Under the pieces are notes generated by a model. It worked only from the letters and a program-made list of their open reading frames with translations. It did no database searches and had not been told where the DNA came from. A stretch of DNA of 64,000 bases from Tepidiphilus sp. J10 (GTDB lineage Bacteria > Pseudomonadota > Gammaproteobacteria > Burkholderiales > Thiobacillaceae), in contig CAMDGQ010000010.1 in NCBI GenBank assembly GCA_945897955.1, forward strand, positions 1 to 64,000, in the 5' to 3' direction. Position numbers and translations under genes: made by a program. Positions 20,251 through 41,393 of this stretch are shown here, in pieces. Positions within the stretch are counted from its first letter, which is position 1, and every line of letters starts with the position of its first letter.

Positions 20251-23037
20251 ATGCAGTTCATTCGAGGCACGGTCTATTCGAGTCTGTTTACCCTCATCCT
20301 GGCCACTTCATTGGCGGGATGCGGAAGTAATCTGACGCCCGAGGAGAGCATTGCCAAGGCAAAGGAGTTGATTGGCAATGGCGAGTTTCGACCTGCTTTG
20401 ATAGAGCTTTCAAATGCTGTGCAGGACGATCCTTCTTCGCAAGAGGGGCGCTGGTTAATGGGCAAGGTGGCGATCGAGTTGGGTGATGGCGCAAAAGCCG
20501 AAAAAGAAATCAGAAAAGCGCTCGAATTGGGGCAGACAAACCAATCGGCGCAACCGCTTCTCGTTAAATCAATCATGCTTCAGGGCGATGTCGAACGGGT
20601 TGTGAAAGAAACTGCCTCAATACCGCCGGATATGACCAATGCAAACAAGGCAATGGTTCTTGGCTTGCGAGGCCATGCGCTGATCTTGCAGGGCAAGATG
20701 GAACTGGCCAAATCCGTTCTTGAGAATGTGCTGAGATTGGAGCCTGACTCGATCGAAGCCTTGGTCGGGTTGGCTGCATTGGATAGCGTTAAGCGTGACT
20801 TCGTGGCAGCAAATCGTTGGGTTGAATTGGCGATCAAGGCCCACCCAAGTTCGCCCGAAGCCTGGAGTGCGCAAGGTGATCTGGCCATGCTACAAGGCGA
20901 CCTCTCCAAAGCCAGGGAAGCCTTTGGCAAGGCGATCAAGCATAGATCCTTTGCGACGCTTGATACCGCCAAACATGCGCTTCTGCTTGTTCATGCGAAA
21001 GAGTTTCAGTCTGCCGAAAAGGATATTGAAAGCTTGAAAAAAGAGGGTCTGGCCAATCATCCCTACGTGAGTTATGTCTCCGGCCAGTATTTTTTCGCGC
21101 AGAAGAAATACTCACAGGCAGTGGAGTCATTTGAAGCCAGTCAAGCAGCGGATCCAAATAATCGTTTGAATAATCTTTACCTTGCTGTTACCTACCATCT
21201 TTTGGGGCAGCAGGAAAAAGCGCATGGGCTTGCAAAGCGATTGAATGCTGAATCGCCGCGATCACCAACCGTAAAACAGTTGCTCAGTGACATACAAATC
21301 AGCCGTATTGAGTACGATGCAGCAAGGGCGACCCTGCAGGGGGCTTTGGACGCATCTCCACAAAATGCCGGCCTGCTGGATATGCTGACCAGTGTGGCCT
21401 TGATGCAGGGAGATGCCGCCAAAGGGCTGGAATTTGCCAGCCGTCTTGTAATGCTCGTGCCTAATTCGAGCGAGGCGAAGGCGAAACTTCTGCGTGCAAA
21501 GTTGATAGCTGGCCAAGCCCTTGACGCCCCAACTGAAAAAACAGCAGCAGGGGATATCTTCAATACCGAACTGTTGCTTACCTTGGAACTACTGCGCAAC
21601 AAGCAGCCTGCACAAGCCCTTGAGAGAGCTCGAAAACTGCATAACCAATATCCTGACAAGCCCGATTCGCTAAACCTGATGGCAGCCGCCTATCTGATGC
21701 TCGGTCAAACAGATAAAGCAAAAGCCGAACTTGAATCCTCTCTCAAGCTCAAACCCAACGATCCATCCGCGACTAAAAATCTGGCCAGGATTGAAATCTT
21801 CAAGCGCAACATGAAGCGTTCCCGTGAGTTGCTTGTCCCATTGGTCAAGGCATTTCCTGGCGACGAAGAAGCCGTTTTGTTGCTGGTCGCCGTCGAGGGA
21901 CGTTTAGGCAATACGGTTTCCGCCATCCCGATGCTGGAACAGGTGGTTCAACAGAATCCCGGCGCACTGGTCGCGCGGAATACGTTGGCCTCGGAGTATT
22001 TGCGTGCCGGCAAGGCGCAGAATGTCATCACCATTACACAGGGGCTTTCGGATGCCCAGTATCAGCGTCAACCTTCTTTGCTTGAATTGCGTGGCAAGGC
22101 GCTGTTGCAGGCGAATGATGCGATTTCGGCACGCAAAGTATTTCAGCAATGGACAAGGCTGGTTCCCGAGTCAGCGCCAGCTCATTTCTATTACAGCGAC
22201 AGCCTGGCTAGAAACGGTGAATTGACTGCTGCACGAAGTGGAATAGAACGTGCCGTCAGATTAAATCCACGCTTTTTGCCAGCTCGAATTGGCGAGATCA
22301 AGATGCTGGTTCAAGACAAGCAACTAGCCAAGGCAAGGAAGGGTCTGGAAAAACTCAGGCAGGATTTTGGTGATCATGCCGAGGTGCTCGCACTTGAGGG
22401 TTGGTTCGCTTTGGGTACGAGCAGCTTTGGCGAAGCCGAGAAAAAGCTGGCAGCGGCATTGAAACGCAAACCGGATACTGACACTGCAGTTCTGTTAGCG
22501 CGGGCGTTGTGGGGGCAACAGAAACATGATTTGGCTTTGAAAGGGATGCAGGATTGGTTGAAGGCACGACCTGATGATCTTGCGATGAGCCTCCATATGG
22601 CCGGTGCTTATCTCAGCCTGAACCGCAAGGAGGATGCACGCGTTCTGTATGCAAAAATTGTCGAGAGTTATCCCAACCATGTTCCGGCACTCAATAATCT
22701 GGCCTGGCTAGGCCAGGACAGGGACATTGCTCAGGCGATCAAATACGCTCAACACGCTCAGTCGGTTGCGCCCAAGGATCCATTCGTCAAGGACACTCTT
22801 GGTATGCTTTTGATGAAGCGGGGAGATCTCACCGCTGCCCACAATCTGCTGCAGGAGGCTGTTGGTCTCATGCCGAAAGCGCCCCAGTTTCAATTGCATC
22901 TGGCAGAAATCCTGATCAAACAGCAAAGACATATACAGGCTGGAAAGATGTTGAACGAAATAATCGACAAATTCCCAGCCAGCCCGCAGGCCGGGGAAGC
23001 CAGGAATCTGCTCGCAACCATGGGCAGAGACAAGTAG
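20251..23037 (+). CDS. prsT: PEP-CTERM system TPR-repeat lipoprotein PrsT
   Basis: A 928-residue TPR protein with a lipoprotein signal peptide. The lipobox LAGC at about residues 21-24 is followed by GSNLTPEESIAKAKELIGNG, the characteristic PrsT beginning. TPR units run to the C-terminus (PQAGEARNLLATMGRDK). In known genomes PrsT accompanies the exosortase A (EpsH/XrtA) exopolysaccharide and PEP-CTERM protein sorting locus. Here it follows a similar but non-lipidated paralogue and precedes a GT1 glycosyltransferase by 7 bases, suggesting one transcript. The start is preceded by AAGGAG. Confidence 0.88.
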   Translation: MQFIRGTVYSSLFTLILATSLAGCGSNLTPEESIAKAKELIGNGEFRPALIELSNAVQDDPSSQEGRWLMGKVAIELGDGAKAEKEIRKALELGQTNQSAQPLLVKSIMLQGDVERVVKETASIPPDMTNANKAMVLGLRGHALILQGKMELAKSVLENVLRLEPDSIEALVGLAALDSVKRDFVAANRWVELAIKAHPSSPEAWSAQGDLAMLQGDLSKAREAFGKAIKHRSFATLDTAKHALLLVHAKEFQSAEKDIESLKKEGLANHPYVSYVSGQYFFAQKKYSQAVESFEASQAADPNNRLNNLYLAVTYHLLGQQEKAHGLAKRLNAESPRSPTVKQLLSDIQISRIEYDAARATLQGALDASPQNAGLLDMLTSVALMQGDAAKGLEFASRLVMLVPNSSEAKAKLLRAKLIAGQALDAPTEKTAAGDIFNTELLLTLELLRNKQPAQALERARKLHNQYPDKPDSLNLMAAAYLMLGQTDKAKAELESSLKLKPNDPSATKNLARIEIFKRNMKRSRELLVPLVKAFPGDEEAVLLLVAVEGRLGNTVSAIPMLEQVVQQNPGALVARNTLASEYLRAGKAQNVITITQGLSDAQYQRQPSLLELRGKALLQANDAISARKVFQQWTRLVPESAPAHFYYSDSLARNGELTAARSGIERAVRLNPRFLPARIGEIKMLVQDKQLAKARKGLEKLRQDFGDHAEVLALEGWFALGTSSFGEAEKKLAAALKRKPDTDTAVLLARALWGQQKHDLALKGMQDWLKARPDDLAMSLHMAGAYLSLNRKEDARVLYAKIVESYPNHVPALNNLAWLGQDRDIAQAIKYAQHAQSVAPKDPFVKDTLGMLLMKRGDLTAAHNLLQEAVGLMPKAPQFQLHLAEILIKQQRHIQAGKMLNEIIDKFPASPQAGEARNLLATMGRDK

Positions 23038-23044
23038 TCGGGCC

Positions 23045-24286
23045 ATGCGCATTTTGGCCATTGCCAACGCGCATGCCTTGGCGCATGTCTCCCGGCTGCT
23101 TGAGATAGCGAAGCTGTTGCGTCAGCATGGCCATGAAGTCCTCTTTGCCGGATACGGTAAATATTTGCAGGTTGCTGCCTGGGATGGTTTTTCAACGCGG
23201 GAATTGCCCTACATCTCGGTAGAGCAGGTGGTGCATGCGGTTCGCACCCAGAAGCTTTGGGAACTTTATCGGGAGCGGGAACTGGCAGAGTTCATCGAAG
23301 CCGAGTTGGCGCTTTATGCTGAATTCAAGCCCGATCTGGTGTTGCTGGATAACCGACCGACTGCACGTACTTCGGCCGAAATAGCCGGCCTGAAAAGCGC
23401 TTCTGTGCTGAATGTGCATATGAGCAATTACCGGCGCACGCCCTTTTTCAGTTATGTTCAACTCGCTGGCAAATTCCAGTTTCCAGGCCTGGATTATTTG
23501 GACAAACTCGAAAATGGAATCGAAAACCACGTTTACGATCGCATGGTCATGGGGGGGCTAAACCGCCTTCGTGGCAAACTCGGATTGCCCCCGCTCTTCG
23601 CCTATCAACATGAAGAGGGGCAGCATCTAGGTCTGCTCGCCGATACGCCTGAATTCAATCCGGTCCGCCAGTTGCCTGATCATATTCGTTACATCGGACC
23701 GCTGACCTGGCGCAATACGCTGCCTGCGCCAATGTGCCTTGGGCATCTCGATCCAGAACGCCCCACTGTTTACTTCACGCTTGGCAGCGAAGGGCTTAAT
23801 GAACTGGTCGAGCAACTTGGTGTGCTGACACGGCAAGGCATTCAGATCGTAGTGGCAACCGGTGCGTCAGATTTTGCCGAGCAAGTGAAGCCTCTGGAAG
23901 GGGTTTATCTAGAGCAATTCATCAATACGGACACGCTTTTACCGCACTGCGATCTGGTCTGTTGCCATGGCGGAAACGGGACGCTATACCAAGCACTTGC
24001 ACATGGCCTGCCCTGTATCGTGGTGGCAACGCATGCAGAGCAGAATTACGGTGGAAAGCGAATACAACAGCTGGGTTTGGGGCGTGCTACAACGCTTAAA
24101 AAACTGCGCCGTGAAGGTATGGCGAGCCTGCTTGAATCTGTGCTGCAAGTTCTGGATACAGCGAGCTACCGGGATGCCGCGCGTGCCATTGCGCCTCGGA
24201 TCAAGGCATGGAACGGTGCGGAACTGGGGGCAAGAGCAATCATGGAATTGATATTGACTGACAACAGGAACACGAATCTCGATTAG
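23045..24286 (+). CDS. GT1-like (MGT/UGT superfamily) glycosyltransferase
   Basis: A 413-residue GT-B glycosyltransferase. The N-terminal domain starts MRILAIANAHALAHVSRLLE with the acceptor-side histidine. The donor-binding C-terminal domain has TLGSEG and CCHGGNGTLYQALAHGLP, the HGGxGT motif of the UDP-glucuronosyl/macrolide glycosyltransferase group, which usually glycosylates small lipophilic acceptors. It starts 8 bases after prsT. A distant relative is encoded at 35414-36613 on the other strand. Donor and acceptor cannot be told from sequence. Confidence 0.85.
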   Translation: MRILAIANAHALAHVSRLLEIAKLLRQHGHEVLFAGYGKYLQVAAWDGFSTRELPYISVEQVVHAVRTQKLWELYRERELAEFIEAELALYAEFKPDLVLLDNRPTARTSAEIAGLKSASVLNVHMSNYRRTPFFSYVQLAGKFQFPGLDYLDKLENGIENHVYDRMVMGGLNRLRGKLGLPPLFAYQHEEGQHLGLLADTPEFNPVRQLPDHIRYIGPLTWRNTLPAPMCLGHLDPERPTVYFTLGSEGLNELVEQLGVLTRQGIQIVVATGASDFAEQVKPLEGVYLEQFINTDTLLPHCDLVCCHGGNGTLYQALAHGLPCIVVATHAEQNYGGKRIQQLGLGRATTLKKLRREGMASLLESVLQVLDTASYRDAARAIAPRIKAWNGAELGARAIMELILTDNRNTNLD

Positions 24287-24392: not shown

Positions 24393-25460
24393 TCAAGCTG
24401 CTTTACGACGGCGGCCGACAAAGCCCATACCAGCCAAGCCGATGCCGATCAGAGCCAGCATGCCGGGTTCCGGAACCCGAGCGGGTTGACGGGTCAGGTT
24501 GGTAGATGTCTGGCCTTTCAGGGTCAGCGTCCAGTTGCCGGCGGTAAGACCGCTTGCAAAGAGGCCGTAGTTGCCCAAGCCGGCGACATTCGGACCGTAG
24601 CTGTAGTCAGCAGCAGTATTGTTGGTGCTGGTACCCAGGGTCTGGTTCAGGTTTTCAGTGTCAGCAAGTTCGGTACAGGTTACATCGAGGCTGCTGATAC
24701 AGTTGCCGGCACCGAGGCCACCCGCGGAAGCGCCATCCGGAGCCCATTGCAGGCCGCTGAAAGTGCCATCCTTGGTCAAGGCGACTGAAACGGCCATGGT
24801 CGCCTGGGCAGAGTAGGTCAGACCCAGGTCATTCAGGATCTGAGCGCGCATGTCCGGATCAGCGTCAAAGCTCAATGCGAAATTGACAGCCGGGCCAGCA
24901 ACGGTGAAGTTGAACGTCAGACCGGTGGTGGACAGGATTTCCGAGCTGGCAGAAGCCGAGGCGGCGGAAGTGATGTTCGACTCGGAAATCTGATCGGTAT
25001 GCGATACGTTGGCATTCAGGCTGGTGATCTCGGAAGTGTAGATAACCGAGTCGGAGTTTGACCAGTTGCCGCCACCAATAGTCAGCCAGGTCAGGGTGCC
25101 ATCACCGGCGACCTGGTTGTTCGTACGCGTGATTGCGCTGCCAGGTGCGTTGGTGACTGGTCCGTCCAGTACCGGCGTGACAGGGAAAGCTGCGCAGCTG
25201 TTGCTGGTCGGGGTGCCGCCGCAGGAGGCGCCGCCAATGTTGCCAACGCCGTTGATCAGGGCAGTGTTGGTTGTGCTGAAGTTGAAGCTGTTGATCGTCA
25301 CGCCGTTGGCGGGGGTAAGCCCGGCATTCAGAAACGCGACAGACAGATTGTTGATGTTCAGGGATGAGCCGGCATAAACGTCAGCGGCTGCTTGACCGGA
25401 CATGCCCAAAGCCAGAGTCGCGGCAATGGCGGTCGCCAGAGTGGTTTGTTTCAGTTTCAT
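24393..25460 (-). CDS. PEP-CTERM sorting domain protein
   Basis: A 355-residue secreted protein. It has a Sec signal peptide (MKLKQTTLATAIAATLALG, predicted cleavage after GQAAA) and a C-terminal PEP-CTERM signal of about 27 residues: VPEPG, a hydrophobic stretch LALIGIGLAGMGFVG, and the basic tail RRRKAA. Such proteins are cut and transferred by exosortase A and typically reach the cell surface or matrix. The middle region is rich in Asn, Thr and Ser with few cysteines, and I do not recognise it. The ATG at 25460 has GGAGAAAATC upstream. It has its own sigma-54-type promoter and ends at a strong terminator, so it is probably monocistronic. Confidence 0.93.
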   Translation of the reverse strand: MKLKQTTLATAIAATLALGMSGQAAADVYAGSSLNINNLSVAFLNAGLTPANGVTINSFNFSTTNTALINGVGNIGGASCGGTPTSNSCAAFPVTPVLDGPVTNAPGSAITRTNNQVAGDGTLTWLTIGGGNWSNSDSVIYTSEITSLNANVSHTDQISESNITSAASASASSEILSTTGLTFNFTVAGPAVNFALSFDADPDMRAQILNDLGLTYSAQATMAVSVALTKDGTFSGLQWAPDGASAGGLGAGNCISSLDVTCTELADTENLNQTLGTSTNNTAADYSYGPNVAGLGNYGLFASGLTAGNWTLTLKGQTSTNLTRQPARVPEPGMLALIGIGLAGMGFVGRRRKAA

Positions 25461-25556
25461 GATTTTCTCCAATTGATAAGGTTGCACTTTACAGGGCTGA
25501 GGCGACCTGCCGGGCCCCAGTGTGCGATGCATGTTTAGCTACGCAGACATTACAAA

Positions 25557-25829: not shown

Positions 25830-26486
25830 TTACTTGAGTCGCTTTGCCGGCACCCCCCCCCAGATTTCATGGGCGCCGATGACCGTGTCCTTGAGGACAA
25901 CCGAGCCGGCGGAAATGATGGCCCCATCGCCGATGATGACGCCTGACATGACCACCGCCGTAGCTCCAATGGTCACGTTGTCGCCAGCCTTGATCCGCGC
26001 CAGGGCGAAATGGCGGCCTTCGATGGCGTGGCTGAACAGCACGGCGTCATGGCCAATGATGCAGTTGGCGCCCAACTCGGTCAGCGGCGGGTCGAGAATG
26101 ACGCCGGCACTGTAGGTATTGGCGCCCATCCGCGTGCCAAGTGCCTGATACACCAGTCGCATCAGGGGAACGGGAAGAAAGTGTGTGCGAATCAGACTGT
26201 TGAACATCAACAGATAGAACAGGATGTTGACCTGGGCAGCAAATTCGCCGCGAGAGCCTTCGGAGAGTTCACCTTCCGGCAAGGGCATGAAATGTAAAAA
26301 CAGGCGATAGATGGCAAAGGCATAACAGTAGAACAGTATGACCCAGGCGAAGGTCAATACCACCCCGCGAAAATCCCCTAGGGGAACAGCACCTAGCACT
26401 AGCCAGACCGTACCGAGGCTGAGGATTACGATGATGGTTAACAATAGGAAGAATAACGAAACTTGTTTGGCGTTGATGGCGCGCAT
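25830..26486 (-). CDS. Membrane-anchored hexapeptide-repeat (LbetaH) acyltransferase
   Basis: A 218-residue protein with two hydrophobic segments near the N-terminus (about residues 10-32 and 40-62) and a left-handed beta-helix domain from about residue 115. That domain shows hexapeptide repeats ([34 protein letters not shown]) and ends [12 protein letters not shown], the typical end of the serine/maltose acetyltransferase-like family. It probably O-acetylates a polysaccharide or glycolipid at the membrane. It lies between a PEP-CTERM gene and a glycosyltransferase. Substrate unknown. Confidence 0.8.
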
Positions 26487-29079: not shown

Positions 29080-30849
29080 TTAAAAGTTGTAGCGGATTTC
29101 TGTGTAGATACGATCCTTGTTGCCAAACTGGCCGAACAGTCCGGCAGCATTGCCGCCAAAAACATCCGCCCCTGCGGCCAGTCGCCAGTTTCCATCCAAT
29201 CGCCAGGTAACCTTGAATTGGGCCAACCAGTCATTGCGGTTGATGCTTCGCAGGAATAACAGTCTGGGTTCGATATTCTGATGCAGCGCTTGAGTGCTGA
29301 TCAGGAAGGTAAAGCCGCTCTCTGTGGAATCAAGCAGCATTCCCGGTTCCGGATCGGGAAATCGCCGCTGGTAGTACTGGACATTGAAGCGAGTTTCCTG
29401 CGGGAAGCTCCACTCCAGTCCAACGATGTAGTCGAGCAGGTTCTGTTTGACGAGTCCATCTGCGTCTGTTGGCGTTGTGACGTTGAACAGCTTGTCCTTG
29501 GTGTATACCGCTTCGGCTTTGAATACCAGGGGGCCAAGATCCTTGCCCAGTGTGGCGCCCAGCTGATGTATGCGGTCATGGATCGGCTGGTAAAGCGTAG
29601 GGGCCAGGCGCGTGAAAGCGGCTGTTGGATCATTTGTGCTGTAATAAAACCCGGAAACATCCCATCCCGATTTGAGATAGGAAAGGCGAGTGCCATAGGC
29701 GGAATTGGCTAATCCAGTCGGCTTGTCTTCAGGTGCGATGCTGACCCCGGCAGGCGGTCTGAACGGGTAGAACTCTGCACCGGGTTTGCCGATGTCGTCG
29801 TAGGTCATGTGCGGGATCCAGACGCCCTCGGCATGGAAGTCGCCTTTGAAATATTCGGCCCGCGCAGCCCATTGGGGAATGCGCAGGATTTCGAAATCAG
29901 GCAGGGCCAGTTCACGCAGATCCTTGGCGGAGACGACGTCGGCAAAAAAGAGTCCGGCCATCTCCCCCCAGATGATGTGCTGTCTGCCAAGGCGGAATTC
30001 CCAGTCATTTGCTGGTATGTCGATATAGGCTTCGCGAATCTGCGCTTCCAGGCGCTGGTCGTTGCGCACCGAGCGGCTGTAGTGATCAGTCATGTCGTAG
30101 ATCGGGTCATACATGAGCCTGCCGCCGAGTTTCCACGCGTTGCCGCCTGACAACTGTCCGGTCGATGCGAGTTCAAGCGTGTTGCGGAATTTGGTCCAGT
30201 GGGTCGGCGACTTGTACGCATAGGCCAGATCATTCTGAAAAAACCCTGTGATACGGGCTTGCTGGGATGGCGGCCGAGCTTGAGAAGTGGCGAGCGGATT
30301 TTCGAGAATTTGCGGGGTGGCTTCCACACTTGTTGCCGGGGGGGGCAGGGCCGACGGTTGAGCGCCAAACAGGGCATCAATGGAGCCCGCATCCTTCTCC
30401 TCGGCTGTTGCCGGCATCAATGTCGATGGGGACGTGGATATATCTTCCTGAACTTGCATAGGAGGGGCTGGCTCCCCGAACAGTGCATCAATGGAGCGAG
30501 GTTCGTCTTCCGGCGGATGCGGTTTGGAGGAGGATTCAGTCGTTTGCGATGGAGTTGATGTGGGCGCCTCGACAGGTCCGCCGAACAGGGCATCAATGGA
30601 GCGAGGTTCGTCTTCCGGCGGATGCAGTTTGGCGGGGGGTTCGGTCGTTCGAGAAGGAGTTGATTTGGGCGCCTCGACAGGTCCGCCGAACAGGTCGTCA
30701 ATGGATTGCGGATCCGCCTTTTTTTTGCCCTTGGCATGGGCAAGTTCGGTAAAGGCGATGCTGTCCAGTGTGAAGACCAGGAGCAACAAGCTCGCCAATC
30801 GACCAAATCGGACTGGGATGAGGGTTTTCAAATTCGACTGCTGGTACAT
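29080..30849 (-). CDS. DUF1302-like outer-membrane beta-barrel with SIDxLFG repeats
   Basis: A 589-residue protein with a signal peptide (hydrophobic segment at about residues 18-34, cleavage near AHA-KG). Next comes a proline-rich linker of about 150 residues carrying four SID[DA]LFG motifs, then a beta-barrel domain resembling DUF1302/porin-like proteins (ITGFFQNDLAYAY onward). It ends with aromatic YNF, as outer-membrane barrels do. The first two repeat units are nearly identical over about 33 residues. It lies 9 bases downstream of the FHA-ABC ATPase gene, so the two are very likely cotranscribed. It could be the outer-membrane acceptor of the adjacent Lol-like export system. Confidence 0.75.
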   Translation of the reverse strand: MYQQSNLKTLIPVRFGRLASLLLLVFTLDSIAFTELAHAKGKKKADPQSIDDLFGGPVEAPKSTPSRTTEPPAKLHPPEDEPRSIDALFGGPVEAPTSTPSQTTESSSKPHPPEDEPRSIDALFGEPAPPMQVQEDISTSPSTLMPATAEEKDAGSIDALFGAQPSALPPPATSVEATPQILENPLATSQARPPSQQARITGFFQNDLAYAYKSPTHWTKFRNTLELASTGQLSGGNAWKLGGRLMYDPIYDMTDHYSRSVRNDQRLEAQIREAYIDIPANDWEFRLGRQHIIWGEMAGLFFADVVSAKDLRELALPDFEILRIPQWAARAEYFKGDFHAEGVWIPHMTYDDIGKPGAEFYPFRPPAGVSIAPEDKPTGLANSAYGTRLSYLKSGWDVSGFYYSTNDPTAAFTRLAPTLYQPIHDRIHQLGATLGKDLGPLVFKAEAVYTKDKLFNVTTPTDADGLVKQNLLDYIVGLEWSFPQETRFNVQYYQRRFPDPEPGMLLDSTESGFTFLISTQALHQNIEPRLLFLRSINRNDWLAQFKVTWRLDGNWRLAAGADVFGGNAAGLFGQFGNKDRIYTEIRYNF

Positions 30850-30858
30850 GTATTACCC

Positions 30859-31842
30859 CTATTCAACAATCTGGCCATCACTAAGCTCGATCACCCGGTC
30901 AGCCATTTCCATGACACGAGGATCATGCGTGGAAAAAATGAAGGTCACACCTTCCTGCTGGTTGAGTTCACGCATGAGCGCGAGAATTTCTCCACCAGTT
31001 TTTCGGTCCAGGTTGGCGGTTGGCTCATCCGCCAGGATGATCTTGGGTTTTGTCGCAAGCGCGCGGGCAATTGCAACGCGCTGTCTCTGGCCGCCACTCA
31101 ATTCGTTGGGACGGTGTCCGCCAAAGCGCTCCAGGCCAACCACTTTCAACGCATGCTCAACCCGCTGCCGGCTTTCCACCTTGTTAACGTCCCGCTTCTG
31201 CATAAGCGGGTATTCCACATTCTCCCAGGCCGAAAGTACCGGCAGCAGGTTGAAGGTCTGAAATACGAATCCCAAAGTGTGCAGGCGCAGATCGGCCAGA
31301 TCATCTGCGGATCTGGCGCTGATATCCTGTCCTTGTATCAGGATGCTGCCTTCTGTCGGGGAGTCGATGCAGCCGATCATGTTGAGGAGGGTCGACTTTC
31401 CGCTTCCTGAAGGGCCCGCCAAAGCGAGAAACTCGCCTTCAAAGACCACGATGGAGACGTTGCTCAAGGCAGTCACAATCTGTTCGCCAAGTGTGTATCG
31501 CTTGCTTACCTCCCGAACTTCCACAACTCTTTGAGCCGACTTGGCCTCGGCTTCTACATCAATCACGAACTGGAGAAGGTATGGGGGTATCGCGAACAAG
31601 TCCCCATCCTGCAAGGGTTCGCGCTGGATTCTTGTCTTGTTGAGGTAAACGCCGCCCTGGCTTCCCAAGTCTTCAAGAAAGTAACCTTCTTCGTCGAGTG
31701 TTACGCGCGCATGTCTGCGACTGACACTTTTTTCATCCAGATGGATTTCGCACTCGTTGGCGCGACCGATCAAGGAGGATGACCGATAAAGGCGGATGTT
31801 TTGCACAACCTGCTGGTTCTGCCAGATCAGGATTCTTGCCAT
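30859..31842 (-). CDS. LolD/MacB-type ABC ATPase with N-terminal FHA domain
   Basis: A 327-residue fusion. Residues about 1-95 form an FHA domain, a phosphothreonine-recognition module, with the diagnostic SLIGRANECEIHL and SVSRRHARVT. Residues about 105-327 form an ABC ATPase of the LolD/MacB family: Walker A GPSGSGKST, Q-loop FVFQTFNLLP, signature LSGGQRQRVAIARAL, Walker B ILADEP and H-loop STHDP. It probably powers the two permeases at 32875-35330. An FHA domain on a lipoprotein-type exporter ATPase suggests control by Ser/Thr phosphorylation. No kinase was seen in the window. Confidence 0.9.
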   Translation of the reverse strand: MARILIWQNQQVVQNIRLYRSSSLIGRANECEIHLDEKSVSRRHARVTLDEEGYFLEDLGSQGGVYLNKTRIQREPLQDGDLFAIPPYLLQFVIDVEAEAKSAQRVVEVREVSKRYTLGEQIVTALSNVSIVVFEGEFLALAGPSGSGKSTLLNMIGCIDSPTEGSILIQGQDISARSADDLADLRLHTLGFVFQTFNLLPVLSAWENVEYPLMQKRDVNKVESRQRVEHALKVVGLERFGGHRPNELSGGQRQRVAIARALATKPKIILADEPTANLDRKTGGEILALMRELNQQEGVTFIFSTHDPRVMEMADRVIELSDGQIVE

Positions 31843-32052
31843 CGTGTTGTCCGTAGCAGCATCAAGCTAATGCAAAAAGTATCCGAAAATTAGATCGCTG
31901 CAACCCGCGCAGGGTGATCGAAAAAATGGGTTATCGGCTTGAGTCAATTGAATCCTGCGACCGTCTTGGCGCCAGTAATCCAGCTGGTTTCAGGATGTTA
32001 CACTTTCCCCGGGTGATGTTGAATTTTGGCTTTGATCTGATAGGAAACCGTA

Positions 32053-32841
32053 ATGAATTTAGCACGGATGGCCATGAGACTGCTTCGGCCTTGCCTCGCA
32101 TTACTGTGTGCGATTTCGATGTTCGCCGCATTGCCGGCAAAGTCTGATGACGACACGGAACAGTCCGGGTTTGCTCGGGAAGTCCTTGAACGGGCTGAGC
32201 GGATTCGTTTTCCAGGCAAGGGCTTCCAGGTTGATATCGCGATTACGACGACAGCACCGGATAACGATCCAGAACTTCGGTCATACCGAATCCTTTCCAA
32301 AGGCAATGCTCAGACTCTGGTTCAGACCACTGCGCCGGCTATTGACCGAAATCAGATTCTGTTGATGCGCGATCACGACCTCTGGGTATTCCTGCCGAAT
32401 CTGTCTCAGCCGATCCGGCTACCCCTTTCGCAAAGGTTGACCGGGCAGGTGGCAAACGGGGATCTGGCGCGTGCCAACTTTGTCGGGGATTACACCCCGA
32501 GCTTGCTGCGCAGCGAGAAGATCGGCGGCGAGTTGCATCATGTTCTGCAACTGAATGCGGTGGACCGCTGGGTAACCTACAACAAGGTGCATTACTGGGT
32601 AAATGCCCGCAACGGCCACCCGTACAAGGCGGAATTCTTTACCTTGTCCGGCCGCCTGCTGAAGGTCTGCCACTATCAGAAATTCAAGCCTATGGGCGGC
32701 GAGGTGAGGCCTACGCAACTGGTCATCGAAGACGCGTTGCGCAGCGGGCATCGTTCGGTGCTCGATTATTCCGGCATGGTGGAAAGGGATCTACCTGATC
32801 GAATTTTTACCAAGGATTACCTGAAGAAACTGAGCCGCTGA
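32053..32841 (+). CDS. LolA-like outer-membrane lipoprotein-sorting protein
   Basis: A 262-residue protein with a Sec signal peptide (hydrophobic core at about residues 8-24, cleavage near LPA-KS) and the fold type of the COG2834 family. Recognisable features are SYRILSKGNAQTLVQTTAP, LLMRDHDLWVFLPN and the C-terminal RSVLDYSGMVERDLPDRIF. The family is related to LolA and usually pairs with MacB/LolE-like transporters or RND proteins to move lipidic cargo through the periplasm. It is on the plus strand between the minus-strand permease and ATPase genes: divergent from the ATPase and convergent with the permease. Confidence 0.82.
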   Translation: MNLARMAMRLLRPCLALLCAISMFAALPAKSDDDTEQSGFAREVLERAERIRFPGKGFQVDIAITTTAPDNDPELRSYRILSKGNAQTLVQTTAPAIDRNQILLMRDHDLWVFLPNLSQPIRLPLSQRLTGQVANGDLARANFVGDYTPSLLRSEKIGGELHHVLQLNAVDRWVTYNKVHYWVNARNGHPYKAEFFTLSGRLLKVCHYQKFKPMGGEVRPTQLVIEDALRSGHRSVLDYSGMVERDLPDRIFTKDYLKKLSR

Positions 32842-32874
32842 CGTTCGCGCTCAAATCCGACAGTAATCGCGCGA

Positions 32875-34086
32875 TCAAATGTTGTGACGCAAAGCGTCGA
32901 CGACGGGCAGTCTGGAGGCGCGTCTGCCGGGTAATACAGCCGCCAGCGCGGCCGCCAGGGAGCCTATCAATAGCGCAACGCCCATGACCCAGGGCACAAG
33001 ATGAATGGAGGCGGTGTATTCGGCGTTGGAGCCCGGCGGCGGCGGCATGGTTATTCCGACACCCGAAATCGCTGCGGCAAAGCTTCCGCCGACAAGCAGT
33101 CCGATCAAGCTGCCCAGCAGGCCCAGTAATGTGTATTCGAGCATGACCAGCTTGAATACTTGGCTGCGGCGCTGTCCGATGGCCAGCATGGTGCCGAATT
33201 CTCCCGTCCTTTCATAAACGGCCATGTTGACGGTACTGGCTACGCTCAACACCAGCATGACCATGATGATGAACTGCAATGCACCGAACTGGCGTCGATA
33301 TAACGCCACGGTTTTTTCGTAGAAATCCGCCAGTTGATACCATGGCTTCATCTCGTAGGCCTGTGTGCCGATTTTTCGGTTGATCGCAGCCAACACCTCG
33401 TCTGTCGCAAGGCTGTCGTCCAGTGATACGACAATGGCATGGACCGCATCGGTATAAAGCAGCTCCTGTGCCGAGTTCATCGGGATGCGTACCGCCCGGT
33501 CGTCGTATTCCTTGAAGAAAGTGCGGAAGACCCCGACGACTTCGAATTCCAGGGTATTCAGCGCACCCTCCGGCGTATTGACCATCAATGTCACCGAGTC
33601 GCCCGGTTGCAGGTGCAGAGAAGCGGCAACGCCTTCGCCAAGGATGACGCCATTCTGGTCCGTGTCTTTGAGTTGTCGTCCGGCGACCATGGTCATGGCG
33701 CTGCCCAGTGCAGCTTCCTTGTCGGGTTCCACCCCCTCGCCCATGATCGGCAGGTCAGCCCGGCCGTTATTCGCGAGCCCGGAAAAGTTGAGGCGTGCCA
33801 TCACATCCTGAACGTGCGGCAGAGTGGCAATTGACTCGGCCAGTGGTTTGGCCTCCGCGATCAGGTAGCGGGAGGGTTCGCGTTTGCCATATTCCAGGAA
33901 GCCCTTGCGGTAGATCTGGATGTGGCCGATACGGGAATGGATGGTGGCTTCACGCAACTGGACGAATACGTCCTCAACGAAACCGCCGCTGACGATGATC
34001 GCGGCGACGCCGGAGACGATCGCCGCCAGGGTCAGCGCGGTGCGAAGGCGATTTCTGAAAATATTGCGAAAAGCGAGTTTCAGCAT
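32875..34086 (-). CDS. LolC/E-like ABC transporter permease 2
   Basis: A 403-residue FtsX/MacB-fold permease. It begins MLKLAFRNIFRNRLRTALTL with a first membrane helix, then a large periplasmic domain, and three C-terminal membrane helices (starting near LQFIIMVMLVLSVAS). It ends with the same ALRHNI tail as its neighbour. A short periplasmic loop reads GITMPPPPGSNAEY, matching IPMPPPPGMEEGY in permease 1, so the two are paralogues and probably form a LolC/LolE-like heterodimer. The start lies 20 bases after permease 1. The upstream frame to 34344 is a shadow. Confidence 0.88.
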   Translation of the reverse strand: MLKLAFRNIFRNRLRTALTLAAIVSGVAAIIVSGGFVEDVFVQLREATIHSRIGHIQIYRKGFLEYGKREPSRYLIAEAKPLAESIATLPHVQDVMARLNFSGLANNGRADLPIMGEGVEPDKEAALGSAMTMVAGRQLKDTDQNGVILGEGVAASLHLQPGDSVTLMVNTPEGALNTLEFEVVGVFRTFFKEYDDRAVRIPMNSAQELLYTDAVHAIVVSLDDSLATDEVLAAINRKIGTQAYEMKPWYQLADFYEKTVALYRRQFGALQFIIMVMLVLSVASTVNMAVYERTGEFGTMLAIGQRRSQVFKLVMLEYTLLGLLGSLIGLLVGGSFAAAISGVGITMPPPPGSNAEYTASIHLVPWVMGVALLIGSLAAALAAVLPGRRASRLPVVDALRHNI

Positions 34087-34106
34087 GGATTCGTCTTGCC
34101 GTTCTG

Positions 34107-35330
34107 CTAGATATTGTGTCTGAGCGCGTTGATGATCTGCATCCGCGAGGCCTTCCAGGAGGGATAGATGCCGGCCATGACGGTAGTGCTGAAAGCAATG
34201 CCGAAGGCGGTGGCAAGCACACTCCAGGTCGCGCGGATTTCTCCCCGGTAGCCTTCTTCCATCCCTGGAGGTGGCGGCATCGGGATGCCGACAAACGAAA
34301 TCAGCTCGGCCAGGCCATAGCCAACCAGCACGCCCATGCCGCACCCCGCAAGGGCGAGCAACAGGCTTTCGATCGCGAATAATTGCATGACCTTGCTGCG
34401 CTTGAAGCCTATGGCCAGCAAGGTGCCGATTTCTCCCGTGCGTTCCAGCACATTCATGATGAGCATGTTCGAAATGCTCAGGATGATGATGCAGCCGATG
34501 ATCAATTTGAGCACCAGCATCTGGCGGGAAAACAGGGCGACGGTCTTGTTGTAGAAGTCTGCCCGTTCATACCACGGTACAAACTCCAGGGCGGCGGATT
34601 TGAGCGGATAGGCGGTGCGGAACTGTTCAAGATACTGGTCGGTAAGGTCTGTTTCCTCAAGCAGAACCAGCCAGGAGTGGGCGCCATTGACCCGCAACAG
34701 GGATTGGCCCAGGCCGAGCGGCAGGCGCAGAGCCGAGTCATCGTAGGCCTGGCTGCCGGTAATGAAGATGCCGGCTACCGTGGCTTCCACGGCATTGATG
34801 CCGCCGCTCGATGGCGTCGTCAACAGGGCGACAGTGGCGCCGGGTGCTACCCCGAGATTGCGCGCCAGGCCGCGTCCCAGGATCACCTCCTTGGCGTTGG
34901 TGCCGGACAGATCCTTGCCTTCGACGATGCGAAACGCCTTGCTGAGTTCCGCCTCCTTCGCAGGGTTGACTCCATCGGCAAGAAAAGACACGGTCGTCTC
35001 GCCATGGCTGATCAGGCCGGTGACTGCCAGCCTTGGCGCCACCAGTTTGACCCCGGGAATCTTTTCGATCTCCGCGTCCTGAGGCATTGCATCGGGGAGG
35101 ATGAAAGCGAACGGGTCGGCCGCGCCGGCTTTCAAATATCCTGGCCGCACGACCTGGATGTGTCCGAGCTGGGATTGGATGGTGCCCTCACGCATGGCCC
35201 AGAAGATCCATTGGGCAAATCCATCCGCCAGCACCATCGAGATAACGCCGGCTGCCACGGTGAGAAGCGCGATCAGGGCACGTCGCCGATTTCGTATCAG
35301 GTTGCGTGCCGCGATGAGGACTTCATCCAT
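34107..35330 (-). CDS. LolC/E-like ABC transporter permease 1
   Basis: A 407-residue FtsX/MacB-fold permease beginning MDEVLIAARNLIRNRRRALI, with one N-terminal helix, a periplasmic domain (HIQVVRPGYLKAGAADPFA onward) and three C-terminal helices. Family motifs include NVLERTGEIGTLLAIGFKRS and the terminal NALRHNI. It lies 83 bases downstream of the GT1 gene. In the Lol system such permeases extract lipidated substrates from the inner membrane and pass them to LolA. Here the ATPase and LolA-like partners are encoded close by. Confidence 0.88.
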   Translation of the reverse strand: MDEVLIAARNLIRNRRRALIALLTVAAGVISMVLADGFAQWIFWAMREGTIQSQLGHIQVVRPGYLKAGAADPFAFILPDAMPQDAEIEKIPGVKLVAPRLAVTGLISHGETTVSFLADGVNPAKEAELSKAFRIVEGKDLSGTNAKEVILGRGLARNLGVAPGATVALLTTPSSGGINAVEATVAGIFITGSQAYDDSALRLPLGLGQSLLRVNGAHSWLVLLEETDLTDQYLEQFRTAYPLKSAALEFVPWYERADFYNKTVALFSRQMLVLKLIIGCIIILSISNMLIMNVLERTGEIGTLLAIGFKRSKVMQLFAIESLLLALAGCGMGVLVGYGLAELISFVGIPMPPPPGMEEGYRGEIRATWSVLATAFGIAFSTTVMAGIYPSWKASRMQIINALRHNI

Positions 35331-35413
35331 GATTGCCGATTGTTTATGAGTTGATGGATTCTACTTGCTGCGACCAAGGCTGTTGAGACGAGATTGACGC
35401 ACAATCCGGCGGC

Positions 35414-36613
35414 TTATATGGAGTCGAGCAAGCTGCGAAATACCGAAGCCGCGTCCAGTCCGCGCAATGCGACAGAGATGCGTGCGGCGTTGAAAAGCAT
35501 GCCTTCTGATTCAAGTCCCTGGCGAACCGCGTGCTGAATATCCTGGCGTGTGGCGCTGGCGGCGCGCAACAGGCATCCGGCGCCAGCGATCTCGATCAAT
35601 CGCATGTTCAGGAATTGATCAAGATTTCCAGCCAGGCCAATAACGGGTATGCCGGATGCAAGACTCTGATAGCTGGTTGGGCTGCCGCCATTGCAGATAA
35701 CCAGGGATGCACGGGCGGAGGCCAGATCGCCCGGCAGGTAATCGCTTACCCTGACGTTTGGCGGCGGCGGGCCTGGTAGATCATGGCCAGCGGTGGCGGC
35801 GATGACCGTGACCGGCAAAGGCGAGAGCGCCTCCAGAATGTCGGGTAAGCGCCTGGCCTGGCCGGAACTGCCTAGCGTGAGATAAATGATCGGGCGGTCA
35901 TCAGGCAATGTCGACCACCATTCCGGTAAAGGGACTTTCGGAGACCACGCCAGGTGGCCAAGAAAATGGTGATTGGCCGGCAACTTGTGCAGGCTTACCA
36001 GCTCCGGTACATCCGCGTAAAGCACATGATCGGCTTCGGTATAGGTGTGGCGAAGGTCGGCTGGAAGCGGCTGCAGACCATGGCTTTTGCGGACCCGATT
36101 CAGCGCAGATGCATGCAACGCGAAGGCCAGAGGGCGAGCCAGATTGAACAGATGTTGCGCCAGTTTTACACCGACGATACGAGTCAGCGGGATGTCTGGT
36201 ACAGGAAAACTCAGGTTGGCGTAAGGGCTCCAGTACGCATTGGTGATATTCAAGTACGGTATGCCCTCCACGCGCGCACTGACGCCGAGAGAGAGCCGAA
36301 AGTCGCCGACCACGACATCGGGCTTCCAGGTTCGCATGAGTTCGCGGTCAGCTTTTACATATTCCTCAAGCGTGCTGGAGTCGTATATCGGGCTGCCGCT
36401 AGCGAGCGCGCGAAAGAAACGTTGACCGGAAATGCTCGCTATTGCTCGCGTCGGGTAGGGAAGTTGGCCCAGCAGCGGGGCGTAGCGCGGATCACACGCC
36501 AGGCATATTTCGTAACAGGCCGGATCCAGAGTTGCAGCCAGGGTTGCAGCTCGGGCGACATGGGCCAGGGTAACCGCTTCCGCAACGAACAGAATGCGTC
36601 GTTTGCCGGCCAT
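35414..36613 (-). CDS. GT1-like (MGT/UGT superfamily) glycosyltransferase
   Basis: A GT-B glycosyltransferase of about 399 residues. It starts MAGKRRILFVAEAVTLAHVARAATL (an earlier ATG at 36619 is possible) and carries VVVGDFRLSLGVSA, YLTLGSSGQAR and the donor-site segment LVICNGGSPTSYQSLASGIP. The family's HGG is NGG here, a change at the donor-site histidine. It is placed 36 bases after the nitroreductase gene, so it probably glycosylates the product made by that cluster. The sugar donor is unknown. Confidence 0.83.
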   Translation of the reverse strand: MAGKRRILFVAEAVTLAHVARAATLAATLDPACYEICLACDPRYAPLLGQLPYPTRAIASISGQRFFRALASGSPIYDSSTLEEYVKADRELMRTWKPDVVVGDFRLSLGVSARVEGIPYLNITNAYWSPYANLSFPVPDIPLTRIVGVKLAQHLFNLARPLAFALHASALNRVRKSHGLQPLPADLRHTYTEADHVLYADVPELVSLHKLPANHHFLGHLAWSPKVPLPEWWSTLPDDRPIIYLTLGSSGQARRLPDILEALSPLPVTVIAATAGHDLPGPPPPNVRVSDYLPGDLASARASLVICNGGSPTSYQSLASGIPVIGLAGNLDQFLNMRLIEIAGAGCLLRAASATRQDIQHAVRQGLESEGMLFNAARISVALRGLDAASVFRSLLDSI

Positions 36614-36655
36614 GCTCATTCCAAACGGCGGCTATGCAAAATCATTCGGATGAGG

Positions 36656-37735
36656 CTATCCGAGCAACAGATTCTCGACCGACTTGCGCGTCGATCTGGC
36701 CACGGGAATCGGGCCGGCACCAATGCGGCCAATAAAAAACAAACGCTCGACAGCAGGTTCACCGATGATTTCGAGCAGTTGTCGATTCAAAATTTCGACA
36801 CGCTTCAGCGCGGTTGGCGTTTTGGTAAAGGCCAGTTTCCGCCGGAAATAGCGGGTAAAGATTACGGGCGTCATTTCGGGTTGGATCAGCCAACCCAATT
36901 GTGTTGCTACCAGCCAGAAACGCTGCATGGCCCGCCCGGCGGCGATGAAGTCATCGATGCCTCCGAGCGGCTTCGGGGCTTGCAGGGCAAAGTGTGCGCC
37001 GCACAGGAGACCAGGCAGCAGATCAAGTTGCAGACGTGGCGGCAGATCGCCAAAAAGATACTTGTTGAAAAATGCGATGCGTTCCCAACTGGACATAGCC
37101 CAACGCATGAAGCGGGCCGTGATCGGGTCTACTCCGACCGCCTGGTCGGGAATTCGGTCCTCGCTGAACCTGGCGCCCCACTCGATGACAGCGCTGTGAA
37201 CCTCGTAAGCTTCTGGAATGGTCAGGCGAACCTTGGCGTTATCAAACATGAAACGAGCCAGACGCCATCTTTTTGCCCAGCCTTCGAACCAGATCACCTG
37301 ATAGCCTTCCGGCAAGGCCGCGACCAGCGTGTGTACTTGCTTGGCCGAGAGCGGTCGAATGGACATCGGACGACGTTGCACGACGCGGGTTTCAATGCAG
37401 GTTGCGAGAGGGTCGCTCGCCACGCTGCTGTCCCTGGTGAAGCAAACATCAAACAGCAGATGGGATTCGGGCGTATCCAGTCGGCGTTCGATTGAGGCGC
37501 GCCGCCCTTGAGTTGAAGCGGCCACTGCAATGGTTTCCAGGATGGCTCCAACAGCCAGTTGGCTGGCATGGCCGTCCCGGTCATAAACCACGTGGTCGCG
37601 GGTGTCGAAGCCATGCAGCAGGAGGTGCTCATCACCCAGTATCTCGAAGCGCCAAGGCTGGGTGTTATCGCCGCTTGGCGCCCAGCGTGCAAGGTCGAGG
37701 ATGCGATAGATGTGCTCGGGTATGGCGTGGCCCAT
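36656..37735 (-). CDS. Nitroreductase-family flavoprotein
   Basis: A 359-residue protein with the FMN-binding nitroreductase signature near the N-terminus (ILDLARWAPSGDNTQPWRFEIL) and a C-terminal IGRIGAGPIPVARSTRKS. It is longer than simple nitroreductases (about 200 residues) and of the size found fused to ThiF domains, as in mycobacterial MoeY/Rv1355c-like proteins. Members of this group act as flavin oxidoreductases or dehydrogenases in natural-product and peptide-modifying pathways. The start is one base after the E1-like gene, indicating tight coupling. Reaction unknown. Confidence 0.78.
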   Translation of the reverse strand: MGHAIPEHIYRILDLARWAPSGDNTQPWRFEILGDEHLLLHGFDTRDHVVYDRDGHASQLAVGAILETIAVAASTQGRRASIERRLDTPESHLLFDVCFTRDSSVASDPLATCIETRVVQRRPMSIRPLSAKQVHTLVAALPEGYQVIWFEGWAKRWRLARFMFDNAKVRLTIPEAYEVHSAVIEWGARFSEDRIPDQAVGVDPITARFMRWAMSSWERIAFFNKYLFGDLPPRLQLDLLPGLLCGAHFALQAPKPLGGIDDFIAAGRAMQRFWLVATQLGWLIQPEMTPVIFTRYFRRKLAFTKTPTALKRVEILNRQLLEIIGEPAVERLFFIGRIGAGPIPVARSTRKSVENLLLG

Positions 37736-37736
37736 G

Positions 37737-38591
37737 TCAGATTCCGAGTTGGCGCCTGGCGATTGCTATCGCAATGCGGTTGACGGGGTTGCGATTGCCG
37801 CCCGGTCGCCAGGTATGGGCAATCCTGTTGCGATAGGCATCGAACTGGATGCCATGCGGGGCCGCCCAGACCTTGCCGCGGCCAAGCAGAATCTTCAGTG
37901 CTTCCGCGCCCGCGATACCGGCGCAAAGCATGCAAGCCATGATGGTGGAGGGGCCTTTCCCTGCCTTCAGATTGACCCTGCCTGGATCGGCAAGGTAGTG
38001 CCGGTGCAGCAAGCCTGGCGCCAGACCAACCAGGAATCGGATGGCTTTTTCCAGTTCGGGACGGTCTCCCCATTGAAAATAATCTTCAAAACTCATCTGG
38101 CCGGGCAGGAAGTTGAGCAGACCGGCACTCATGCCCAGAGGCGCTACGGTAATGGCGGGTATGCCATGCTTGTGGCAGTGCGCGAAGACCATTTGCCGCG
38201 CTTCAATGGCAAAGAAATCGAGGCCATCGACGTATAGATCGACATCGCTGAAAAATTGATCGACGTTATTGTTGTCGACTCCATTTGGGAAGGTTTCGAT
38301 AACACATCCCGGATTGATCTGACGCGCTTGTTCGGCCAGCACATCGACTTTGTCACGGCCGATAGTGAGCATGGATGCTCCGGCCTGGCGGTTGAAATTG
38401 GCCAGTTCGAAAGAATCCAGATCGGCGATGTTGAATTTCGATACGCCCAGACGAGCCAAGGTCAGCAAGTGGAAACCACCGACGCCTCCCATCCCGGCGA
38501 TGGCAACCCGTTTGTTGCAGAGGCTGGCTTGTTCCTGTTCAGTGACCCAGCCAAGGTTGCGGGAAAAGGCTTCCTGATAGTTGAAGTCCAT
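37737..38591 (-). CDS. ThiF/MoeB/E1-like adenylating enzyme
   Basis: A 284-residue protein with the E1 superfamily Rossmann core: VAIAGMGGVGGFHLLTLARLG for nucleotide binding, then IADLDSFELANFNRQAGA with the conserved Asp, Asn and Arg, and DLYVDGLDFFAIEARQM. E1-like enzymes adenylate a carboxylate, classically the C-terminus of a ubiquitin-like protein. No ubiquitin-like partner is seen nearby, and the CxxC zinc sites of MoeB/ThiF are not obvious. The carboxylate of an N-acyl amino acid made by the preceding enzyme is a possible substrate (inference). The start lies 5 bases after the acyltransferase stop. Confidence 0.82.
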   Translation of the reverse strand: MDFNYQEAFSRNLGWVTEQEQASLCNKRVAIAGMGGVGGFHLLTLARLGVSKFNIADLDSFELANFNRQAGASMLTIGRDKVDVLAEQARQINPGCVIETFPNGVDNNNVDQFFSDVDLYVDGLDFFAIEARQMVFAHCHKHGIPAITVAPLGMSAGLLNFLPGQMSFEDYFQWGDRPELEKAIRFLVGLAPGLLHRHYLADPGRVNLKAGKGPSTIMACMLCAGIAGAEALKILLGRGKVWAAPHGIQFDAYRNRIAHTWRPGGNRNPVNRIAIAIARRQLGI

Positions 38592-38596
38592 GGCAT

Positions 38597-39382
38597 TCAG
38601 CCACGCGCAATACGGGCGAGAATGGCGTTTTCTTCGTGGGGAGACATGAAGTAAGGGTACAGCGAGCGCTCCTGACGGGAGAGTTCCGGATGGCCGGCAA
38701 ATTTTTCCATCATCAGCGCGCCGTAGTTGGCGACATCCAGCCTGAGCAGCAAGGCAGGAGCGCCAACGCGCGGGCACATACGTTCAACCCCCAATTGCTG
38801 GAAACCCAGCATGCGCTGATAGAACGAAACATGTGACGGGTTCACTTCGATCACGATATCCGTGTAATCCCATATTCTTACCGCATACAGATAGGCAACC
38901 TGGAATAGCCCGGCAATCATGCGTTTGGATGCGCTTTTATGGTCGATGGCAAGCTTGGTGAATTCACAAACCCGCAGCCCCTGTTGCCGGAGTGTATCGA
39001 CTTCCGGTTTGTAGAGTTCGTCGACAAGCAGGCCGGAACCCGTGTCGAATCCGACAGTGATCGTGCCGATCACTGCATCTTCCTTGTAGGTGGCCAAAGT
39101 AATTCGCTCCGGGCAAATCTGCTGGCCGGATTGCGCGCTGACCTGGTAGCCGACGTCCCGATAACGTTTTTCAACGAGAAACCTTGCTTCTCGGGTACGC
39201 GCATCGTCATGGGCAAGACGGATCTTGAATGTATCCTTCTTGACCGAGCCGGTCGACGCATCTTCGGCGTCCGGGCCAGTGTATGTCATGCCGACATTCT
39301 GCAAACGCGGCGGCTGCTCGACGACGGCAATCGTTTTTGACCAGGTGCTGCTGCCTAGGCGCAGCCTGTCCATGATTCCCAT
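38597..39382 (-). CDS. N-acyl amino acid synthase-like acyltransferase (FeeM / PEP-CTERM-associated)
   Basis: A 261-residue GNAT-fold protein resembling FeeM-type N-acyl amino acid synthases and the exosortase/PEP-CTERM-associated acyltransferases. The core reads FKIRLAHDDARTREARFLVE, ITLATYKEDAVIGTITVGFD, VCEFTKLAID, and DIVIEVNPSHVSFYQRMLGF, with the conserved E-x-N-P-x-H. FeeM-type enzymes join a long acyl chain from acyl-ACP to an amino acid. The start has GAGGAAG upstream. It is the first gene of a compact minus-strand unit with ThiF-like, nitroreductase-like and GT1 genes. The amino acid substrate cannot be told. Confidence 0.82.
   Translation of the reverse strand: MGIMDRLRLGSSTWSKTIAVVEQPPRLQNVGMTYTGPDAEDASTGSVKKDTFKIRLAHDDARTREARFLVEKRYRDVGYQVSAQSGQQICPERITLATYKEDAVIGTITVGFDTGSGLLVDELYKPEVDTLRQQGLRVCEFTKLAIDHKSASKRMIAGLFQVAYLYAVRIWDYTDIVIEVNPSHVSFYQRMLGFQQLGVERMCPRVGAPALLLRLDVANYGALMMEKFAGHPELSRQERSLYPYFMSPHEENAILARIARG

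Positions 39383-39510: not shown

Positions 39511-41393
<1,883 letters not shown>

Follow-up and report, generated by a model that had tools for sequence, protein, structure and literature searches.

The window analyzed here is a 64,000-nucleotide stretch of Tepidiphilus sp. J10 (contig CAMDGQ010000010.1, numbered C10 among the 128 contigs that make up a 3.9-Mb genome). From position 39382 down to 29080, it carries nine genes, which encode a FeeM-type N-acyl amino acid synthase (NAS), a ThiF-like enzyme, a nitroreductase-superfamily flavoprotein (NTR), a GT1-type glycosyltransferase, two LolC/E-like permeases, a LolA-like protein, an FHA-LolD ATPase, and a DUF1302 protein. Only the LolA-like gene is on the plus strand; the other eight are on the minus strand. 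An earlier note had proposed that this set makes an N-acyl amino acid lipid and exports it through a private Lol-like pathway. Matches to Pfam and NCBIfam models confirm the gene set and its coordinates, with the starts of ThiF (38591) and permease 1 (about 34086) corrected. Across the sampled genomes, the export half is nearly always found near acyl-lipid enzymes, whereas the reverse linkage is weaker. The nine genes are as follows.

38597 to 39382, minus strand: FeeM-type N-acyl amino acid synthase (PF21926, 164.7 bits, cut-off 27)
37737 to 38591, minus strand: ThiF/E1-like adenylating enzyme, predicted N-acyl amino acid cyclase (PF00899, 141.9 bits; PRK08223, 430 bits, cut-off 266)
36656 to 37735, minus strand: nitroreductase-superfamily flavoprotein, predicted N-acyl amino acid desaturase (PF00881, 36 bits, low but above the 23.5 cut-off)
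35414 to 36619, minus strand: GT1-type glycosyltransferase, predicted to glycosylate a small-molecule product (PF06722, EryCIII-like_C; PF00201, UDPGT)
34107 to 35330, minus strand: LolC/E-like permease 2 (FtsX and MacB_PCD; lolCE model 106.8 bits, cut-off 362.45)
32875 to 34086, minus strand: LolC/E-like permease 1 (MacB_PCD and FtsX; start at about 34086 by alignment)
32053 to 32841, plus strand: LolA-like periplasmic carrier, whose N-terminal helix reads as a signal peptide (PF17131, LolA_like, 149 bits)
30859 to 31842, minus strand: FHA domain fused to a LolD-like ATPase (PF00498 and PF00005; LolD 224.2 bits, below the cut-off of 307.75)
29080 to 30849, minus strand: DUF1302 predicted outer-membrane barrel (PF06980, 51.8 bits)

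The genes from FeeM through ThiF and NTR to GT1 are separated by 5, 1, and 36 bases, in agreement with the claim that they are packed within 40-base gaps. The first two gaps place NAS, the predicted ThiF cyclase, and the predicted flavin desaturase side by side; in oxz-, tyz-, and trz-type pathways these enzymes are expected to be adjacent or fused. The FeeM gene is the single PF21926 match in the whole genome, and FeeM itself (2g0b) is the only solved relative of its 20-row alignment at E values up to 0.01. The enzyme is predicted to make N-acyl amino acids from acyl-acyl carrier protein or acyl-coenzyme A. Alignment places the start of ThiF at 38591 rather than at 38777, where a longer open reading frame (ORF) begins with GTG. 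The glycine motif, NFNRQ, and both Asp residues of DxxD are invariant in 20 aligned ThiF sequences, and the DxxD Asp, in register with an Asp of TcdA, is a candidate for the adenylation-motif Asp (D217 in TrzS, a protein outside this alignment). TcdA is the best solved relative, followed by ThiF and MoeB. TcdA cyclizes N-acylated threonine on tRNA. The flavoprotein, a candidate member of the TyzC/OxzB (FDO-A) branch, matches the NCBIfam models for the Rv1355c family (101.2 bits) and the Acg family (111.9 bits) about equally, both below cut-off. The former match spans the flavin half of that model (E 4.7e-29), and the best solved relative is Acg (2ymv). ThiF-NTR fusions are present in several relatives.

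In the export half, lolCE is the nearest NCBIfam model for both permeases (104.5 and 106.8 bits), and the closest solved relatives of permease 1 are LolF and LolE. The LolA-like protein has no NCBIfam match. Its structural model has a LolA fold (predicted local distance difference test, pLDDT, 85.8) and matches LolA-superfamily structures. The best is 3buu (NE2245 of Nitrosomonas europaea; 60% identity over the matched region, 414.5 bits by profile), followed by P. gingivalis LolA3 and a DUF1329 protein (template modeling score, TM, 0.70), and then LolA (TM about 0.4). A likeness to LprG with bound glycolipid ranked 42nd (TM 0.27), was judged too weak, and is not used as evidence. Scores below the equivalog cut-offs for LolD and LolC/E place these proteins outside the LolCDE-LolA pathway proper, which supports an export half distinct from the general LolCDE-LolA families. 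The FHA fusion is confined to a minority, occurring in 11/78 and 2/28 relatives and in 0/21 LolD-like matches at the paralogue loci described below, and suggests a putative lineage-specific control through phospho-threonine.

The DUF1302 protein is modeled as a barrel (pLDDT 89.4) with 18 long strands by the authors' own count. Its best structural match is AlgE (TM about 0.6, 11-12% identity), with porins close behind; the match is weak, a barrel resemblance that gives no evidence for polysaccharide export. The 195-residue tail that precedes the barrel contains SID[DA]LFG four times (residues 49, 84, 119, and 156). Shuffling of the tail produced at least one D.LFG in only 14/5000 cases. At least one copy of D.LFG is found in 38/73 DUF1302 homologues, and the motif is not universal. 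The repeats are a possible docking motif.

The distribution of these genes was followed in an order sample of 150 genomes, searched for FeeM, the LolA subtype, ThiF, permease 1, and exosortase, and in a class sample of 369 genomes, searched for the LolA subtype and exosortase. Sixteen genomes of the order sample, scoring above 230 bits, and 14 of the class sample, scoring above 340, carry the LolA subtype. Other LolA scores were below 180 bits, and a 146.5-bit contig-end piece in G092 belongs to the subtype. The window genome (G000) is in both samples, which gives 29 different LolA-subtype genomes, in 17 families as labeled by the search tool. Stretches of up to 20 kb, down to 6.5 kb at contig ends, were fetched around these loci and around 20 paralogue loci. 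The latter comprise 19 of the 20 low-scoring, non-subtype LolA matches in the order sample (one match of 44.8 bits was omitted) and one of many in the class sample.

FeeM, ThiF, NTR, or a TIGR03694-type acyltransferase lies within about 10 kb at 25/29 subtype loci versus 0/20 paralogue loci (Fisher 4e-10). This count covers 28 LolA loci and L199, a second locus of G111 that lacks LolA, with the window excluded; a recount by genome (16 order and 13 class genomes, window included, L199 left out) also gives 25/29. The four unlinked genomes are not devoid of such genes. In G240, a PF21926 match missed by the authors' own profile lies 5 kb away; G029 has ThiF 11 kb away; ThiF and NTR adjoin a second LolC/E pair in G111 (L199); and G424 has ThiF on a different contig. 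None of the 17 families is without a linked locus. The divergent LolD-LolA pair stays the same throughout, but 25 layouts occur in 28 loci (content differences and contig ends are counted too). Because the rest of the locus moves, the linkage is not merely one inherited block. Full-length FeeM is found in 13/16 LolA-subtype genomes of the order sample versus 32/150 overall. "Full-length" means above 100 bits (32 genomes), and matches below 50 bits were left out; at least five weak FeeM matches overlap TIGR03694-like profile matches, and NCBIfam names one of them (L055) TIGR03694. All 20 paralogue loci carry their own LolC/E and LolD, and at least seven share their genome with a subtype locus (G000, G129, G020, G005, G029, G055, and G450). 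The window genome has one at G000:C81:12614-14602 (L151), where a paralogous LolA-like gene with a single LolC/E and LolD stands without acyl-lipid neighbours, a type common to all 20.

A wider scan took the best 80 of 296 relatives of the LolA subtype. The hosts are mostly betaproteobacterial (Gallionellaceae, Thiobacillus, Sulfuricella, Nitrotoga, Nitrosospira, Accumulibacter, Azonexus, Dechloromonas, and Zoogloea), with one Methylocaldum. The 80 loci contain DUF1302 (74), LolD (77), LolC/E (45), ThiF (31), NTR (23), FeeM (19), and TIGR03694-type acyltransferase (19). At least one of the last four enzymes is present at 51/80 loci, and at 38/48 of those spanning at least 20 kb. Five Zoogloea loci show only a DUF1302-LolD-LolA triad within the stretch covered. 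A recurrent neighbour of LolA is the exosortase-associated acyltransferase TIGR03694, which was identified at 233.9, 225.2, and 123.2 bits (cut-off 111.95) in the three members tested. Relatives of GT1 are a minority: they occur at 21/80 of these loci, at 5/29 subtype loci, and at 8/40 loci fetched through FeeM matches above 90 bits.

The LolA subtype also co-occurs with exosortase, which is present in 16/16 order and 14/14 class genomes with the subtype (29/29 different genomes), versus 58/150 and 117/369 overall (p about 6e-8 each). The window genome has one PF09721 exosortase match (250.8 bits), on contig C19, outside the window. Genomes with only LolA paralogues showed no significant excess of exosortase (7/12, p 0.13). 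Exosortase is found in 28/29 ThiF genomes (in G135 the match is weak and partial, at 30.9 bits) and in 31/32 full-length FeeM genomes. The exception in both sets is G013, in which FeeM, ThiF, and NTR stand in a row (L052) and the genome, with a 100% completeness score, has no exosortase match; the cassette can therefore exist without an exosortase system. At least 11 genomes have an exosortase gene at a distance of 9-22 kb from FeeM or ThiF. The window itself contains a PEP-CTERM protein and PrsT, the neighbourhood expected of XrtA/PEP-CTERM systems. NAS genes have been linked to PEP-CTERM and exosortase before (Craig, Cherry and Brady 2011, as cited in passages of PMC7293339 and PMC11072679), and the substrates that exosortases process are suspected to retain some new moiety (PMC11980579, in part).

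The left flank holds a dcw cluster of cell-division genes, the pair of prsT genes, a further GT1 gene, the PEP-CTERM gene, a hexapeptide acyltransferase gene, a glycosyltransferase-like gene, and a MATE transporter gene. On the right are a YcgR-like PilZ gene and genes read from sequence as hemB and engB. Three features of the left flank are as follows.

17264 to 23037, plus strand: two prsT genes, encoding XrtA/PEP-CTERM tetratricopeptide repeat proteins (TIGR02917, 738.8 and 577.1 bits, cut-off 312.2)
24393 to 25532, minus strand: PEP-CTERM protein (NF041538, 244 bits, cut-off 100; PF07589)
25830 to 26486, minus strand: hexapeptide-repeat acyltransferase, possible outlying tailoring gene (PF00132)

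A cluster of relatives of the hexapeptide acyltransferase is found at 17/80 LolA-subtype loci, where several adjoin GT1. The second GT1-type glycosyltransferase (23045-24286) directly follows the two prsT genes and has relatives at 3/80 loci. The YcgR-like PilZ gene (39511-40245) is divergent from feeM, with relatives at 8/40 FeeM loci. Further right, at 51058-60237, a large adhesin-like ORF with SdrD-B repeats is followed by an ABC exporter and two ORFs resembling a HlyD/TolC-type pair, probably a set for a type I secreted surface protein. A scan of the window for sigma-54 sites (TGGCACN5TTGC, up to 2 mismatches) gave 83 matches versus 97 expected; there is no excess, and none is claimed.

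The explanation favoured here, with somewhat better than an even chance of being right, is that the locus is an exosortase-linked lipid system with dedicated LolCDE-like export. The identities of the genes, the folds, the conserved linkage of the Lol subtype, and its co-occurrence with exosortase are shown; the product, cargo, transport direction, and docking are predictions. FeeM would acylate an amino acid, probably, by analogy only, an aromatic one, with a fatty acyl chain. ThiF would adenylate the carboxylate and close an oxazolone ring, or activate it transiently, and the flavoprotein would desaturate the side chain. In this lineage, GT1 would probably add a sugar, for example on a phenolic oxygen. 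The dedicated LolCDE-like ABC transporter would then extract the lipid from the inner membrane, the LolA-fold protein would carry it across the periplasm, and the DUF1302 barrel would receive it; the repeated N-terminal motif could dock the carrier. The product predicted from these enzymes is an N-acyl dehydro-amino acid or oxazolone, probably of an aromatic residue, which narrows the "activated, redox-modified" lipid of the earlier note. In a more specific and improbable version, the oxazolone would be a pre-activated acyl donor that the private Lol route brings to the periplasm or outer membrane. There its ring would be opened by an amine, which could belong to a PEP-CTERM protein, to the acceptor that the exosortase uses, or to an amino sugar, and a fatty-acyl dehydro-amino acid would remain as an anchor.

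Several observations weigh against an exported oxazolone lipid. ThiF is present in 21/29 LolA-subtype genomes (10/16 order, 11/13 class) and a TIGR03694-type acyltransferase is the neighbour at 14/29 loci; the lipid therefore need not be an oxazolone everywhere. Seen from the biosynthetic side, a LolA, LolC/E, or DUF1302 relative appears at 9/40 FeeM loci, and 19/29 ThiF genomes lack a LolA-subtype match (10/29 have one), so the cassette often does without the Lol-like exporter. The Fisher values overstate independence because the sampled genomes are related. Characterized LolCDE-LolA systems carry lipoproteins. In the dehydrotyrosine producers of PMC12479983, no oxazolone was seen. The proposed coupling of synthesis and export is thus borne out from the export side and is looser from the FeeM side. 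Likewise, occurrence in unrelated contexts, which the earlier note had named as the finding that would undermine it, is not seen for the export half and is seen in part for the biosynthetic half. Clustering of all eight genes, also anticipated there, holds for a minority: FeeM, ThiF, NTR, LolA, LolD, DUF1302, and LolC/E occur together at 10/80 loci, with GT1 set aside.

The cargo could instead be protein. The Lol-like module would then serve the exosortase system by moving its lipid-anchored proteins to the outer membrane. These could be PEP-CTERM proteins after processing or lipoproteins, PrsT for example, and the N-acyl lipid would be their anchor or merely co-regulated. This alternative is unlikely. 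In its favour, every LolA-subtype genome has an exosortase, prsT lies within the fetched stretch at 9/29 loci with two copies in the window, and the second PrsT starts with a lipobox-like LAGC by the authors' own reading of the sequence. The affinity of permease 1 to LolF and LolE also fits, as does the moiety that exosortases are thought to leave on substrates (PMC11980579, in part). However, in the order sample, 42 of the 58 genomes with an exosortase lack a match to the LolA subtype, and therefore the Lol subtype is not a general PEP-CTERM requirement; moreover, acyl-lipid enzymes are more constant neighbours (25/29) than prsT (9/29).

Alternatively, the product of the oxazolone cassette could diffuse, as a signal or surfactant. 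The Lol-like module would then be a neighbour that stays close only because both serve the exopolysaccharide/PEP-CTERM programme. Oxazolones resemble acyl-homoserine lactones, and trzAS of mycobacteria adjoins predicted cyclic di-GMP genes (passages of PMC12856293). The divergent YcgR-like gene and its relatives at FeeM loci are in line with this proposal, as are the 19/29 ThiF genomes without the LolA subtype. Against it stand a linkage that persists across many layouts and paralogue loci that are never linked (0/20), and the proposal appears quite unlikely. On scores and context, it is very improbable that the module is just another copy of the usual lipoprotein-releasing pathway, here by chance. 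Homology to LolCDE and LolA speaks for such a copy, but the scores come nowhere near the equivalog cut-offs for LolC/E and LolD, the LolA-like protein lacks an NCBIfam match, exosortase co-occurrence is constant, and acyl-lipid neighbours are present.

The physiological role of N-acyl oxazolones has been called "a major unresolved question" (PMC12856293, in part). An export half that co-occurs with exosortase in all sampled genomes and stands beside acyl-lipid enzymes provides a short gene list for that role and for the exosortase moiety. The orphan structure 3buu and the family DUF1302 gain a concrete hypothesis. Zoogloea, Accumulibacter, Nitrosospira, and Thiobacillus are among the organisms that carry the LolA subtype. 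If the acyl-donor version were true, exopolysaccharide or surface proteins would be lipidated in a chemically self-activating way, and the moiety of bacterial exosortase sorting would be identified.

Among known systems, the biosynthetic half has close counterparts, and the claim that no such pathway had been described does not hold for its chemistry, as FeeM, ThiF, and nitroreductase sets are published (PMC10404671, PMC12856293, and PMC12479983, each in part). The oxazolone pathways OxzAB, TyzACB, and TrzAS (the last two from M. tuberculosis and relatives) and the kyonggic acid, thalassotalic acid, and stieleriacine loci share adjacent NAS, ThiF-like cyclase, and nitroreductase-family desaturase genes. 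Experiments in M. tuberculosis and Rhodococcus showed that NAS, ThiF, and a flavin oxidase make N-acyl oxazolones (passages of PMC10404671 and PMC12856293). The same passages cite OxzAB of Pseudoalteromonas rubra as an oxazolone maker and compare TyzC and TrzS with Acg. A likeness to TrzS is also seen in the ThiF-NTR fusions among relatives of the window set. A FeeM/ThiF/NTR-type trio marks producers of dehydrotyrosine lipids, including Massilia kyonggiensis (PMC12479983, in part). Both this cassette type and the exosortase/PEP-CTERM context were missed by the earlier note. In the available passages, the oxazolone-pathway papers name no LolA, LolCDE, or DUF1302 partner, although tyz has mmpL9 nearby, and the terms transporter, glycosyl, outer membrane, and exosortase do not occur in PMC12479983.

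The link of NAS to PEP-CTERM (TIGR03694) likewise places NAS-type acyltransferases in exosortase genomes, and the citing passages in PMC7293339 and PMC11072679 mention no Lol-like exporter. LolCDE-LolA sorting shares two LolC/E-like permeases, a LolD-like ATPase, and a LolA-fold carrier with the locus, which differs in its sub-equivalog permeases and ATPase, a carrier without an NCBIfam match, the DUF1302 barrel, and the linkage to acyl-lipid enzymes. Its carrier belongs to the same LolA subfamily as NE2245, whose entry (PDB 3buu) is titled "uncharacterized LolA superfamily protein" and gives no function in the title. Aryl polyene clusters (LolA-like ApeL, RND-type ApeM, and LolB-like ApeN) also package lipid genes with a dedicated LolA-like carrier, and aryl polyene lipids are proposed to travel by that carrier together with an inner-membrane exporter of its own (passages of PMC8253772). 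They differ in lipid chemistry and in using an RND exporter, whereas the exporter genes here are ABC-type and accompanied by a barrel. In open-licence papers, no description was found of a Lol-like half tied to oxazolone or PEP-CTERM/exosortase systems. The biosynthetic half is thus a known kind of cassette, and the new part is the private Lol-like route together with its constant exosortase context.

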